Assembly (NCBI RefSeq): GCF_014352855.1
Contig: NZ_CP060697.1
Span: 2,314,001-2,378,000 of the forward strand
Source: Sphingomonas sabuli
GTDB taxonomy: Bacteria; Pseudomonadota; Alphaproteobacteria; Sphingomonadales; Sphingomonadaceae
DNA: 64,000 nucleotides
Reading direction: 5' to 3'
Below the pieces are notes generated by a model, which saw only the letters and a program-made list of their open reading frames with translations, ran no database searches and was not told the origin of the DNA. This document shows, piece by piece, positions 28,255 through 31,520 of the stretch. A program made the translations under genes and the position numbers. Numbering within the stretch: the first letter of the stretch is position 1; every line of letters begins with the position of its first letter.

Positions 28255-28834
28255 AGTGGTCGCGGAGACGGAGCGTCTCCGGCTGCGCACCTGGGACGAC
28301 GCCGACCTCGACGAATTCGTCCGCCATACCAACACGCCTGCGGTGATGCGCTGGCTCGGCGGCGTCTGGCCGCTCGACCAGCATCGTCAGGGCTTCGAGC
28401 GCATCCAGGCAATTCAGCGCGACCATGGCCACACCTTGTGGCTGGTCGAGCGCAAGGCTGACGCCGCGCTGCTCGGCTTTTGCGGGCTGAAGCGGGTCAA
28501 TTCGCCGGGCGGCGAGGCGATGCATGGCGAATTCGAAGTCGGCTGGCGCCTGCGCGAGGACGCGTGGGGGCAGGGCTATGCCAAGGAAGCGGCGATCGCC
28601 GCGCTTGACCTGGCCTTTGATACGCTGGGCGCTGACCACGTCGTTGCGCTGACCGTCCCGGGCAACCGCGACAGCCAGAAACTGATGTGGCGGCTTGGCA
28701 TGCATCGCCGCCCGGACCTTGATTTCATCGATCCCCGCTTTGACGATCCGGGCGACCTCAACCCGTCCATCATCCACCGGATCGACGCCGCGGAATGGCC
28801 GGCGGCCCGCACGGCCGCGCTTGGTCCGCGCTAG
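28247..28834 (+). CDS. GNAT family N-acetyltransferase (RimJ/RimL-like)
   Basis: This 195-residue protein has the opening ETERLRLRTWDDADLDEF, the acetyl-CoA loop WGQGYAKEAAIAAL and the closing NRDSQKLMWRLGM, all characteristic of RimJ/RimL-type acetyltransferases. The start overlaps hemB by eight bases, suggesting co-translation. The substrate is probably a protein N-terminus or a small amine and cannot be named. It ends convergently with a lipoprotein gene, overlapping four bases. Confidence 0.87.
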   Translation: MAEVVAETERLRLRTWDDADLDEFVRHTNTPAVMRWLGGVWPLDQHRQGFERIQAIQRDHGHTLWLVERKADAALLGFCGLKRVNSPGGEAMHGEFEVGWRLREDAWGQGYAKEAAIAALDLAFDTLGADHVVALTVPGNRDSQKLMWRLGMHRRPDLDFIDPRFDDPGDLNPSIIHRIDAAEWPAARTAALGPR

Positions 28835-29328
28835 CGGCGGAGCGCCGCCTGCATCTGGCTGATCGCCTGAACCTCGCGCTCGTCGATCGCCGAGACCTGC
28901 GCGGACGCCTGCCCGATCGCGCGCAGATTGGCAGCGCCGATACCGCCCGCGGCGATCAGCCGGTCGGCGGCAAGCGAGTCGATTTCACTCAGCGCCAGCG
29001 CCACCGGTGCGCGCGCTGCGACCGCCCGGGACAGCGCCTGCTGGGCGGCGACCCAGCCTTCGCCCTGCGCCGCGCCCGCCGACGCGACAGCGGACCGTGC
29101 CGCGGATGCCGCGCTCTGGAAGCCGCGGTCGCCAGCCTCGGCCTGGGCGACCAGCGTATTCAGCCGCTGCACCAGCTGCGGGTCCGCCTCGGCCGCGACG
29201 ACGGGGTCGGCGACCGGAACGCGCGGATCGATCGATTCGGCGGCGCGCGGCGCCAGCGAGGGGATCGGCCCATCCGGACTGGCGCATCCGGCCAGAAGGG
29301 CGAGGGGGAGAAGGAGCAGCGGGCGCAT
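28831..29328 (-). CDS. alanine-rich lipoprotein, unknown function
   Basis: This 165-residue protein has a clear lipoprotein signal (MRPLLLLPLALLAGC, Cys15), a Pro-containing linker and a long Ala/Gln/Glu-rich helical region (about residues 50-165) that could form a coiled coil or helical bundle. It resembles Lpp-like or DUF-type sphingomonad lipoproteins, but I cannot name a family. The longer frame upstream is rejected because it has no signal character and approaches the tRNA region. Confidence 0.65.
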   Translation of the reverse strand: MRPLLLLPLALLAGCASPDGPIPSLAPRAAESIDPRVPVADPVVAAEADPQLVQRLNTLVAQAEAGDRGFQSAASAARSAVASAGAAQGEGWVAAQQALSRAVAARAPVALALSEIDSLAADRLIAAGGIGAANLRAIGQASAQVSAIDEREVQAISQMQAALRR

Positions 29329-29437
29329 TGCGAGCGTGTCTAGGAAGCGCGGCGGCGCGGCGCAATCTGCCCCGTGCAGGGTTGCCACATATTGCTGCTC
29401 CCCCTATGTGCCCGCTGCCTCGCTTGTCGCGGCATCA

Positions 29438-29514
29438 GCGCCCGTAGCTCAGCTGGATAGAGCACCAGACTACGAATCTGGGGGCCGGAGGTTCGAATCC
29501 TTCCGGGCGCGCCA
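29438..29514 (+). tRNA. tRNA-Arg (anticodon ACG)
   Basis: The 77-nt cloverleaf has acceptor arms GCGCCCG (29438-29444) and CGGGCGC (29504-29510), discriminator G, and an encoded CCA (29512-29514). Its D arm contains GCTC-AGCTGGATAG-GAGC-type pairing. The anticodon stem is CCAGA/TCTGG around loop CTACGAA, and the T arm contains GGTTCGAATCC. Anticodon ACG reads CGN arginine codons after A-to-I editing by TadA. Confidence 0.97.
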
Positions 29515-29581
29515 TTTTCCACTCCCTCGCGAAAAATCGGTTGTTGAGCGTTCAGGCGGCACCTGTCACAACAGGATCGCA

Positions 29582-29641
29582 ATGACGCTCATGCTCGCCA
29601 CCGCCGCTTATTATTATCCCGACGAGGTTGGGATCGGCTGA
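29582..29641 (+). CDS. putative 19-residue leader peptide with three Tyr codons
   Basis: An ATG at 29582, with AGGA six bases upstream, opens the 19-codon frame MTLMLATAAYYYPDEVGIG and ends at TGA 29639-29641. Three consecutive TAT codons are striking in GC-rich DNA where TAC is available. The frame is followed within 32 bases by a strong terminator hairpin and then by phhA, the enzyme that makes tyrosine from phenylalanine. This is the layout of amino-acid attenuation. GAGGTTGG (29624-29631), inside the peptide gene, can pair with CCAACCTC (29663-29670) just ahead of the terminator. Its function as a leader is inferred. Confidence 0.5.
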   Translation: MTLMLATAAYYYPDEVGIG

Positions 29642-29672
29642 CGCGCGCTAAAGCACAGACCACCAACCTCGA

Positions 29673-29700
29673 CCCGCCAGCTTCGCTCGGCGGGTTTTTT
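29673..29700 (+). terminator. Rho-independent terminator or attenuator ahead of phhA
   Basis: CCCGCC (29673-29678) and GGCGGG (29689-29694) form a six-pair GC stem around AGCTTCGCTC, in which AGC and GCT can extend the pairing. TTTTTT follows at 29695-29700. It lies 23 bases before the phhA start, so it would stop any transcript from the tRNA or leader before the gene unless it is prevented from folding. Confidence 0.75.
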
Positions 29701-29722
29701 GTTGCCGAAGAAGGACCGGACC

Positions 29723-30511
29723 ATGTTGCAAGCCAACGATCGCGAGACCGACCCGCCGAAGCAGGGCTGGCAATCCTATGTCGTGCCGCAGGGGTGGGAG
29801 GCATTCTCGGCCGAGGACCATGCGGTCTGGGACCTGCTGTTCGAGCGCCAGTCGCAGCTGCTGGGATCGCGGGTGGTGGCGCCGTTCCTCGACGGCATCG
29901 ACCTGCTGCGCCTGTCGCACCCCGGCATCCCGGAGCTTGGCGAGCTTAACGCGATCCTCGTCCCCCGCACCGGATGGAGGACTGTCGCCGTGCCGGGGCT
30001 GGTGCCGGACGACGTCTTCTTCGCCATGCTGTCGGAACGGGTGTTCCCGGTCGGCAATTTCATCCGCACCCGCGACCAGATCGACTATCTCGAAGCGCCC
30101 GACTGCTTCCATGACCTGTTCGGCCACATTCCGATGCTCGCCAATCACGATTTCGCGCACATGGTCGAACATGTCGGGCGGCTGGGCCTTGCCGCGGTGG
30201 CGCGCGGGGAGGGCGAGCGGGTCGCCCGCCTGTACTGGCACAGCGTCGAATTCGGTCTGGCGCTGGAAGGCGGCGATCTGAAGATCCTTGGCGCCGGGCT
30301 CGCATCCAGCTTCGGGGAAGCGCATTTCAGCCTGGAAGACGAAAGGGTGGAGCGGACGCCCTTTACGGTCGGGCGGGCGGTGGCGACCGCTTATCGGCAC
30401 GACGCGTTCCAGCCGCGCTATCTCGTTTCGAGCTCGCTGGATCAGACCATCGCCAGCGTTACCGCCCTGAAGGCCGACCGCCTGCTCGGCCTGCAAATGG
30501 AGGAGGCTTAG
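29723..30511 (+). CDS. phhA: phenylalanine 4-monooxygenase
   Basis: This 262-residue monomeric aromatic amino-acid hydroxylase has the iron ligands His130 and His135 (CFHDLFGHIP) and Glu176 (YWHSVEFGL). It is the normal bacterial length, lacking the animal regulatory domain. It converts phenylalanine to tyrosine using oxygen and tetrahydropterin. The ATG at 29723 has AAGGA nine bases ahead. A terminator hairpin and a Tyr-rich short frame just upstream suggest attenuation by tyrosine supply. The 3' end overlaps a small minus-strand gene by four bases. Confidence 0.93.
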   Translation: MLQANDRETDPPKQGWQSYVVPQGWEAFSAEDHAVWDLLFERQSQLLGSRVVAPFLDGIDLLRLSHPGIPELGELNAILVPRTGWRTVAVPGLVPDDVFFAMLSERVFPVGNFIRTRDQIDYLEAPDCFHDLFGHIPMLANHDFAHMVEHVGRLGLAAVARGEGERVARLYWHSVEFGLALEGGDLKILGAGLASSFGEAHFSLEDERVERTPFTVGRAVATAYRHDAFQPRYLVSSSLDQTIASVTALKADRLLGLQMEEA

Positions 30512-30660
30512 GCGAGGACGCTGGCGCTCAACTCCGCGCGCGAGGCGAAATCCTCGGCCAGTTTGCTGTGCCAGGCACGGGCCGTATCGGTGATCGCGCG
30601 CTGCGCCGCCAAGCGCTCTTCCACAGCCCGCCGCCGATAATAACGGTGATTTGACTCCAT
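30508..30660 (-). CDS. small conserved-looking basic protein, unknown function
   Basis: This 50-residue protein starts at the ATG at 30658-30660 behind AGAGGGGGG. It reads MESNHRYYRRRAVEERLAAQ at the N-terminus and continues as an amphipathic helix rich in Ala, Arg and Glu. Short proteins with a YYxRRA-type start followed by a helical tail are common in sphingomonads, but I know of no function. The much longer open frame upstream is not credible. It ends convergently with phhA. Confidence 0.55.
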   Translation of the reverse strand: MESNHRYYRRRAVEERLAAQRAITDTARAWHSKLAEDFASRAELSASVLA

Positions 30661-30846
30661 CGAACCCCCCTCTGGTCGGGACGGACGATGCGCCCGAGTT
30701 CCTAAGAGATGGTTAATATCCACAGGCGTCCCGCCCCGGCACAGCCGCATATGCACGAATGACACAGTCGGCCGGACAATGGATGATCGCGGAAACCTAT
30801 CGAGTGAGTGCTCGTTGTGGCGTAAAGTCTTGAAAGGAAACATCCC

Positions 30847-31101
30847 GTGCTCAACACTACTTCCTTTGGCCGGGGACATTTCGATCCGAACGCGCGCGGC
30901 TATCACGTCGCCTATCGCGAAGGAGCGGTCAATCATTGTCCCGGTTGCGGCCGCAGCCACTGGCATATCGGTCGCCTCAGCGCCGAATGCGCTTTCTGTT
31001 CGACCGCGCTGCCGCTGGCGGAATCGCACTGCCAGGGTCAGACCGCGACGGTCACCCGCCGGTCATGGCCGGTGTATCCGACGATCGAGCAGGCCTCTTA
31101 A
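30847..31101 (+). CDS. small zinc-ribbon protein
   Basis: This 84-residue protein has two CxxC pairs, Cys31/Cys34 (NHCPGCGRSHWHIGR) and Cys48/Cys51 (AECAFCSTALP), forming a probable zinc ribbon, with an aromatic N-terminal half and a flexible tail. It starts with GTG at 30847, eight bases after AAGGA. Such single zinc ribbons often bind nucleic acid or act as small adaptor proteins. The function is unknown, and no operon partner overlaps it. The 186-bp gap before it shows no other gene. Confidence 0.65.
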   Translation: MLNTTSFGRGHFDPNARGYHVAYREGAVNHCPGCGRSHWHIGRLSAECAFCSTALPLAESHCQGQTATVTRRSWPVYPTIEQAS

Positions 31102-31124
31102 CCTACCGGCAAGTGTAAATCTGC

Positions 31125-31166
31125 CATTCGCCCCTCATCCACGGATTGTGGTAGGAGGGGCGAATG
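31125..31166 (+). promoter_or_regulatory. long hairpin covering the ribosome site and start codon of the next gene
   Basis: CATTCGCCCCTC (31125-31136) and GAGGGGCGAATG (31155-31166) are perfect 12-bp inverted repeats. Inside the 18-base loop, CCAC (31139-31142) and GTGG (31148-31151) can add four more pairs. The right arm contains both the GGAGGGG ribosome-binding sequence and the ATG at 31164-31166, so the mRNA would hide its own initiation site. No T-run follows, so it is not a standard terminator. Confidence 0.65.
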
Positions 31167-31520
31167 TTTCTGCGTCTTCCGATTCTGCTGGCGGCCGCGA
31201 TTGCATTGTCGCCCGCGCCCGCGCTGGCCCAGGCGGGCCGCTTCCTGATCGTCAACAACACAGACATCGACTTCAGCGCCGTCCAGGTGCGCCCGGTCGG
31301 CTCGAACCAGTGGTTGCCGCTGGTGGTGAAGCCCGTGCCCGTGACGCGTAGCGGCGGGCAAGGAAACGTCGACTTTAATAATCCGGAGTGTGCGTTCGAT
31401 CTTCAGGCGACGCTGCCGGACGGCCGCGTGGTCGTGTGGTCTCGGCTGAACCTTTGCGAGACCAAGGCCGTGACGTTGAATCGAAGCGCGTCCGGCGAGC
31501 TATGGGCGGATTACCGCTAG
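31164..31520 (+). CDS. small secreted protein, unknown function
   Basis: This 118-residue protein has a Sec signal peptide (MFLRLPILLAAAIALSPAPA then LAQ) and a mature part with alternating beta strands (RFLIVNNTDIDFSAVQVRPVGS). It has two cysteines (PECAFDL and LNLCETK) likely to be disulfide-bonded. It looks like a periplasmic or secreted beta-sandwich protein, of the kind annotated as Tat-pathway or hypothetical in sphingomonads. Its start codon and ribosome site are buried in a 12-bp stem. The 3' part is overlapped antisense by the minus-strand membrane gene. Confidence 0.7.
   Translation: MFLRLPILLAAAIALSPAPALAQAGRFLIVNNTDIDFSAVQVRPVGSNQWLPLVVKPVPVTRSGGQGNVDFNNPECAFDLQATLPDGRVVVWSRLNLCETKAVTLNRSASGELWADYR

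Follow-up and report, generated by a model that had tools for sequence, protein, structure and literature searches.

Attenuators for Trp, Phe, His, Leu, Ile/Val and Thr are textbook regulators, and the classical ones possess a protector pairing upstream of the control codons. The enteric pheL-pheA and trpL-trpE systems, as presented in part of PMC11802643, comprise a short ORF with codons for the end product and respond to charged tRNA; the leader described here upstream of phhA appears to share these traits, but it would sense Tyr and control a hydroxylase, and only two competing helices were found in it. Among Alphaproteobacteria, the trpL-trpE(G) attenuator of Sinorhizobium meliloti produces an RNA that starts at the leader ATG (PMC7298713, in the portion on this leader). 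The phhA leaders may be leaderless too, yet the S. meliloti system uses Trp codons and acts on trpE(G), and the two are likened by description only, the phhA leaders having no Rfam match. In Corynebacterium glutamicum, aroR with its Phe-Tyr-Phe codons precedes aroF, an aromatic biosynthetic gene as in the case of the phhA leader, and responds to the availability of Phe, not Tyr (passage on aroR in PMC11802643). Attenuators have also been predicted from a database ahead of tyrA operons, including hisHb-tyrA of Agrobacterium and others, with neither the signal nor any Tyr codons given in the lines that list them (PMC1173090). Like the phhA leader, they stand before genes for tyrosine synthesis, although the gene differs and the likeness is again one of description only.

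As for phhA itself, the phhABC genes of gammaproteobacteria are governed by PhhR/TyrR, a DNA-binding activator of catabolic genes that works at a sigma-54 promoter (PMC1173090, in part). Both this system and the phhA leader place phhA under the control of aromatic amino acids, but PhhR/TyrR is a protein and not an RNA attenuator. Lrp-type proteins are perhaps further regulators of phhA (relevant lines of PMC5343134). PhhA can synthesize tyrosine where TyrA is absent, as genetics in Dyella japonica has shown and as is also known from Legionella; both resemble the sphingomonads studied here in a biosynthetic PhhA and a missing TyrA, and the passages of the source that treat them mention no Tyr leader (PMC7311316). 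The earlier note on this DNA knew of no description of phhA attenuation, and our literature search agrees: among the open-licence papers listed, titles and the opening lines of abstracts report neither a Tyr-sensing leader nor attenuation of phhA, and the words "tyrosine" and "phenylalanine" are absent from the main text of a survey of premature terminators (PMC2965389).

The window, i.e., the whole 64,000-nucleotide stretch of Sphingomonas sabuli DNA analysed, contains at 29582–29722, directly upstream of phhA, a short Tyr-containing ORF, a helix and an intrinsic terminator, all on the forward strand. The leader ORF (MTLMLATAAYYYPDEVGIG and its stop codon; 29582–29641) has 19 codons plus stop and carries the putative control codons TAT TAT TAT at 29609–29617. 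Segment 1 (CGAGGTTGG, 29623–29631), situated within the last leader codons, can form 9 bp with segment 2 (CCAACCTCG, 29663–29671), the 3′ end of which lies one base short of the 5′ arm of the terminator. The latter, recognized by sequence and fold, consists of CCCGCC (29673–29678) and GGCGGG (29689–29694), followed by a T6 tract (29695–29700). The Shine-Dalgarno sequence GAAGGA of phhA (29710–29715) comes next, and the gene itself, for phenylalanine 4-monooxygenase, begins with the ATG at 29723 and ends at 30511. The succession of a 19-codon frame with three TAT codons, a hairpin with T6 and phhA, given in the earlier note, is read directly in the sequence. The pairing it had announced is also present, but is 9 bp long rather than 8, and it encloses the leader stop codon instead of bracketing the terminator, which lies outside the helix. 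We also observed that TGACGCGCG at the leader stop (window 29639–29647 and equivalents) is the majority sequence in alignments, lies outside both helix and terminator and is mostly absent from subgroup C (see below).

The window's PhhA matches PF00351 over cut-off (E 9.1e-40), and its best NCBIfam hit, TIGR01267 (E 1.1e-70), scores 237.8 bits and does not reach the curated (equivalog) cut-off of 264.75; by sequence, the product is a biopterin-dependent aromatic amino acid hydroxylase closest to phenylalanine 4-monooxygenase. Within the window, on both strands, the leader is the only ATG ORF of 10–60 aa with YYY (it has two in-frame ATGs). Tyr makes up 2.1% of codons in 35 gene-like window ORFs, from which YYY within 19 codons is expected by chance at about 1.5e-4. 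The fold of the leader region is modestly better than that of shuffled sequences (z −1.99; equally good in 4 of 200 shuffles). A simple terminator scan of 28800–31200 gave 2 sites, one of them a 5-bp register overlapping the phhA-leader hairpin, vs 1.3 expected by chance, so that by itself the terminator is unremarkable. The case for the leader rests mainly on its conservation in relatives.

PhhA was searched for in 397 genomes of the family, of which 348 gave a match, and also by genus: in g1, to which the window belongs (matches in 65 of 71 genomes), and in the other two genera in which we found leaders, g53 (22 of 26) and g44 (2 of 2). The upstream regions examined in these three related genera comprise 95 phhA loci: 69 from g1, 22 from g53, 2 from g44 and 2 listed under Sphingomonas. 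A Tyr-containing ORF followed by an intrinsic terminator was detected at 90 of them, namely 66/69 in g1, 20/22 in g53, 2/2 in g44 and both named loci. The close relatives that keep phhA thus keep the Tyr codons and the stem as well, the point on which the earlier note had staked its proposal. Those listed under Sphingomonas (Sphingomonas sp. URHD0057 and a MAG of this genus) are apparent duplicates of G455 and G464, with identical PhhA; the count without them is 88/93. No leader was found at the phhA of other genera of the family (0/47 and 0/30 loci, 0/77 in total), where one PhhA locus per genome was taken; about 250 phhA-bearing genomes of the family fall outside these counts, as do two fragments of a second phhA in G353 (L116, L117). 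The five misses are varied. The g53 locus L105 has a run of N in the assembly at the place of the leader, and L113, also of g53, shows by eye a YYYY leader and a terminator with an interrupted T tract. The remaining three are without a leader: L171, the second phhA copy of G435, and L173 and L174, both copies of G448, which is the only phhA-bearing g1 genome lacking one. Two other genomes, G432 and G479, possess two phhA copies each, every copy with its own leader; the PhhA pair of G432 is near-identical.

These counts come from a detector that required one or more Tyr among the final 24 residues, took the ORF with the most Tyr and allowed 10–75 nt from stop to terminator arm; it was tuned on the same loci that it counted, and an earlier version had wrongly called L093. 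In 77 of the 90 loci the leader is the sole ATG ORF ending in the allowed range. When ORFs were picked in the same way for each residue, runs of three were most frequent for Tyr, at 49/90 loci, ahead of Ala at 26, Leu at 16 and Arg at 6. An RNA model built from 70 leaders and run against 396 genomes of the order gave 27 matches of at least 43.8 bits, all of them phhA leaders of these genera; the next match (38.9 bits) is not a leader, and the one-Tyr leader of G337 reaches only 33.5. At E up to 0.05 the model finds some match in 329/396 genomes, and nine lower matches were inspected: seven proved to be terminators that follow longer ORFs, and the other two were a Trp leader and an ilv-type leader. 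A candidate second leader in the window's own genome (G000) was dismissed, its RNA-model match sitting at the end of a long ORF that we take to encode a proton-pumping pyrophosphatase. A DNA search with the window leader returned matches in 384/397 genomes at E up to 1; among the matches listed, those of G000, G192, G233, G224 and G337 alone were recognized by position as phhA leaders. In a tree of PhhA with 108 rows, of which 67 were marked as leader-bearing (L105 and L113 by hand), the leader label requires three changes, at least two of them set by well-supported branches, and one gain followed by two losses is a possible history. Leaders of similar build were also seen at other genes. In L243 (G454 C1:2001038-2001127) two consecutive Trp codons and a terminator precede a gene that is presumably trpD-like, a probable Trp attenuator, judging by its layout, in the window's genus, and in L246 (G498 C6:67828-67922) a leader rich in branched-chain codons and a terminator precede a gene that we take to be ilvD-like.

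The conserved part of the leader peptide is its Tyr run. In 88 of the 90 leaders, 2–5 Tyr codons lie within about 24 codons of the stop, the other two (G337 among them) having one. In a non-redundant set of 70 leaders, 44% of the codons at positions −13 to −8 relative to the stop are Tyr. Outside the run, sequence, length and the residues that follow it vary strongly. In the 70 leaders TAT is used 161 times and TAC 24 times, vs 163:151 in the 35 gene-like window ORFs, a preference that may make the leader more sensitive. The spacing is regular: the last Tyr codon is followed by the stop at 8 codons in 58 leaders and at 9 codons in 19 (77/90), and the distance from the stop to the 5′ arm of the terminator is 26–36 nt in 90/90. 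Given known sizes of the ribosome footprint, the 8–9-codon spacing fits a ribosome which, stalled on Tyr, would leave the last leader codons free and which, on the stop codon, would cover them.

The helix between segments 1 and 2 is supported by comparison among the leaders. The cognate duplex has a mean energy of −21.0 kcal/mol vs −18.1 for non-cognate combinations, and 0 of 2000 permutations were as low, in a type of test that shared ancestry inflates. A control segment upstream of the Tyr codons gave −12.5 kcal/mol, with the cognate duplex lower in 66/70. In 25 close relatives, the window included, pair 1 is C-G in 14, G-C in 10 and broken in 1, and pair 6 is U-A in 14, U-G in 3 and C-G in 8. 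Paired cells in this set amount to 218/225 vs a permutation maximum of 213, the 9-mers having been chosen as best complements and shared ancestry again favouring the observed value. Conserved are thus the Tyr codons, for which the earlier note had proposed to look, along with the spacing and a covarying helix. The helix signal is uneven, however: segment 1 has its best partner in the cognate segment 2 in only 3/70 leaders (median rank of the cognate 11.5), comparison with codon-order shuffles gives z below −2 for only 26/70, and RNAalifold recovered the helix in neither of two subgroup alignments, the spacer being misaligned in the second. Two other pairings were rejected. An antiterminator formed by 29630–29637 with the 5′ arm of the terminator is, by eye, not kept in relatives, and a pairing of GACGCGC after the stop with the 3′ arm, suggested by RNAalifold, rests on the misaligned spacer. 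No classical protector pairing was seen upstream of the control codons, only the two competing helices, which predicts read-through, not termination, when the leader is untranslated.

How the helix meets the terminator differs among subgroups, which we set by simple patterns (A, the window's, 17 leaders; B, 8; C, 21; D, 22; E, 8; 14 of 90 fitting none). It overlaps the 5′ arm of the terminator in D and E and partly in C, and abuts it only in A and B. Folding with the ribosome placed at the last Tyr codon and the 3′ arm not yet emerged gave a share of the 5′ arm paired with the leader of about 0.71–0.72 in D, 0.66 in E, 0.42 in the 14 unassigned leaders, 0.27 in C, 0.03 in A and 0.01 in B; with the ribosome on the stop codon instead, the share is 37% in D and 27% in E. 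The earlier note, which found no convincing antiterminator pairing with the CCCGCC arm, was right for the window, but relatives possess one. In equilibrium folds, the terminator is present for almost all leaders and ribosome positions, its probability with the ribosome at the last Tyr falling below 0.3 in just 5/90, and for the window leader there was no drop in the four states folded. Since equilibrium folding favours the terminator, exclusion would have to be kinetic, or perhaps steric where the helices abut.

The start of the leader mRNA was approached by comparing 46 single-ATG leaders, scanned over 0–30 nt. The promoter match peaks with the −10 element ending 6–8 nt before the leader ATG, with 5.63 of 12 matches at 8 nt and at most 4.2 outside 6–8 nt; relative L002, for example, carries TTGACC-17-CACAAT. 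By comparison with such relatives, the window would have a −35-like hexamer TTGAGC at 29544–29549, weak in the window itself, and 17 nt past it a −10-like hexamer CACAAC at 29567–29572, ending 9 nt before the leader ATG, both on the forward strand. Automatic promoter scans of the window did not pick these hexamers, which are poor matches. Shine-Dalgarno pairing is weak, with a median of −2.6 kcal/mol in the 46 leaders vs −5.9 at 89 phhA starts. The leader mRNA may accordingly be leaderless or near-leaderless, starting at the leader ATG. What the earlier note took for a good ribosome-binding sequence is a weak one, only AGGA, and may sit at or upstream of the transcription start.

The metabolic setting was assessed through TyrA (PF02153), which is found over cut-off in 345/397 genomes of the family and in 0/28 leader genomes tested, three of the latter giving weak matches below the cut-off. 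Among genomes with a leader-less phhA, TyrA is over cut-off in 10/11, G448 included. As TyrA is absent over cut-off from all 28 leader genomes, PhhA is probably their tyrosine-synthesis enzyme, which fits the metabolic logic of the earlier note, namely that phhA makes tyrosine. The link between the leader and the loss of TyrA is inexact, since 27 further TyrA-less genomes of the family (several lineages outside g1, g44 and g53, e.g., G006; found by elimination from the family TyrA list) all have phhA and none has a Tyr leader, so that convergent leaders in other TyrA-less lineages were discarded, and since leader genome G435 (86% complete, 4% contamination; outside the 28-genome test) carries, next to the second of its phhA copies, a region coding for TyrA that seems to be split between frames. 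The leader-less copies L171 (G435) and L173 (G448) follow aroC, aroB and aroE (regions L250 and L248; we presume the identity of aroE in G448 and aroB in G435 from sequence), a neighbourhood that favours a biosynthetic role there. HPPD was found in 44/44 genomes searched, in some a few kb from phhA (e.g., G142, G233, G264 and G375), and PhhA may therefore also serve catabolism. The prephenate dehydratase domain PF00800 was missing in the window genome and in 19/20 leader g1 genomes tested and present in 4/7 leader g53 genomes tested; neither this search nor that for HPPD decides between a biosynthetic and a catabolic role of PhhA. Phenylalanine may be imported by the window organism or made through a different dehydratase. 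Five genomes of 99–100% completeness (G052 and G127 of g53; G447, G454 and G457 of g1) show neither a PhhA match nor PF00800, nor TyrA over the cut-off, and judging by gene content are possible Phe and Tyr auxotrophs.

On the parts themselves, their conservation and spacing, the covariation and the absence of TyrA from the 28 leader genomes, all read from sequence, we consider it very probable that the region is a ribosome-mediated transcription attenuator tuning phhA to the supply of tyrosyl-tRNA. Transcription would begin at the leader ATG or a few bases before it, and the leader would be translated as it emerges. With ample Tyr-tRNA, the ribosome would reach the stop codon and cover segment 1, the terminator would form and phhA would be off. 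When Tyr-tRNA is scarce, the ribosome would wait at the Tyr run, with its leading edge just short of segment 1 or over its first few bases; this segment would then pair with segment 2, the terminator would be prevented and phhA transcribed, whereupon PhhA would convert phenylalanine into tyrosine. This tyrosine would matter because these bacteria are mostly without TyrA. In the window's subgroup, the abutting helix may block the terminator kinetically; alternatively, two adjoining helices may not both fit the exit channel of RNA polymerase.

Several other explanations would account for some of these features. The hairpin could belong to the tRNA-Arg gene (ACG; 29438–29514) that ends about 160 nt upstream of it, the Tyr ORF being accidental. 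This is extremely improbable, as relatives contradict it: of 26 leader loci given to ARAGORN, only the window's own yielded a tRNA, whereas leader and terminator were detected in all 26; besides, the T tract and the phhA ATG are just 22 nt apart, which leaves too little room for a promoter of phhA between them. A leader peptide may act in trans, as described for peTrpL (in part of PMC7298713), and the leader might accordingly be an arrest peptide or functional small protein that senses a small molecule, e.g., free Tyr or Phe, rather than charged tRNA; yet the peptide varies strongly outside the Tyr run and TAT and TAC are both used, and we regard such a role as highly improbable. Nor does the region resemble a known RNA element: Rfam over the window gave only the tRNA at gathering level, no T-box occurs among the five Rfam matches at E up to 1 in L003, L027, L142 and L020, and membership of a known leader or riboswitch family was set aside, the sole match in a leader region being P15 in L027 at 22.3 bits vs a gathering score of 70.

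The universal presence of HPPD in the 44 genomes, in some within a few kb of phhA, would also suit the reverse logic, with high tyrosine inducing phhA for the catabolism of Phe and Tyr. The lack of TyrA over cut-off in the 28 leader genomes tested argues against it, and in D and E stalling at Tyr exposes a segment that ties up the terminator arm, so starvation should open phhA; we judge this reversal quite improbable. A further alternative, unlikely in our view, concerns the window's own subgroup: the Tyr leader would regulate phhA, but the helix would no longer act as an antiterminator, the switch there being weak or decayed or working by another route such as RNA stability or pausing. The small share of the 5′ arm that pairs with the leader in A (0.03) and B (0.01) and the undiminished probability of the window terminator in the four folded states agree with such decay. 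On the other hand, the abutting helix is held by compensatory changes in the 25 close relatives even though segment 1 is coding, and the Tyr codons and spacing are as conserved there as elsewhere. An attenuator responding to tyrosyl-tRNA is the reading that we retain, and stalling on Tyr, read-through and opening under scarcity would be inferred parts of it.

By sequence, then, the locus probably represents a leader-peptide attenuator with a new amino acid (Tyr) and a new target (phhA). Much more tentatively, and with some doubt, we propose that its layout is new as well, i.e., a leaderless mRNA, no protector hairpin, an antiterminator made of the leader's last codons and, in one lineage, a sterically blocking abutment, with a single origin when PhhA replaced TyrA in the ancestor. 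Such a switch would be set apart from the classical scheme by the prediction that absence of translation means read-through, and the extent of overlap that a switch requires could be studied in the natural variants, which range from complete overlap to simple abutment. In this sphingomonad lineage, TyrA seems to have been replaced by PhhA. If our reading is true, it would be evidence at the level of the gene that PhhA, an enzyme commonly counted as catabolic, serves regulated tyrosine synthesis in a group of sphingomonads mostly without TyrA.
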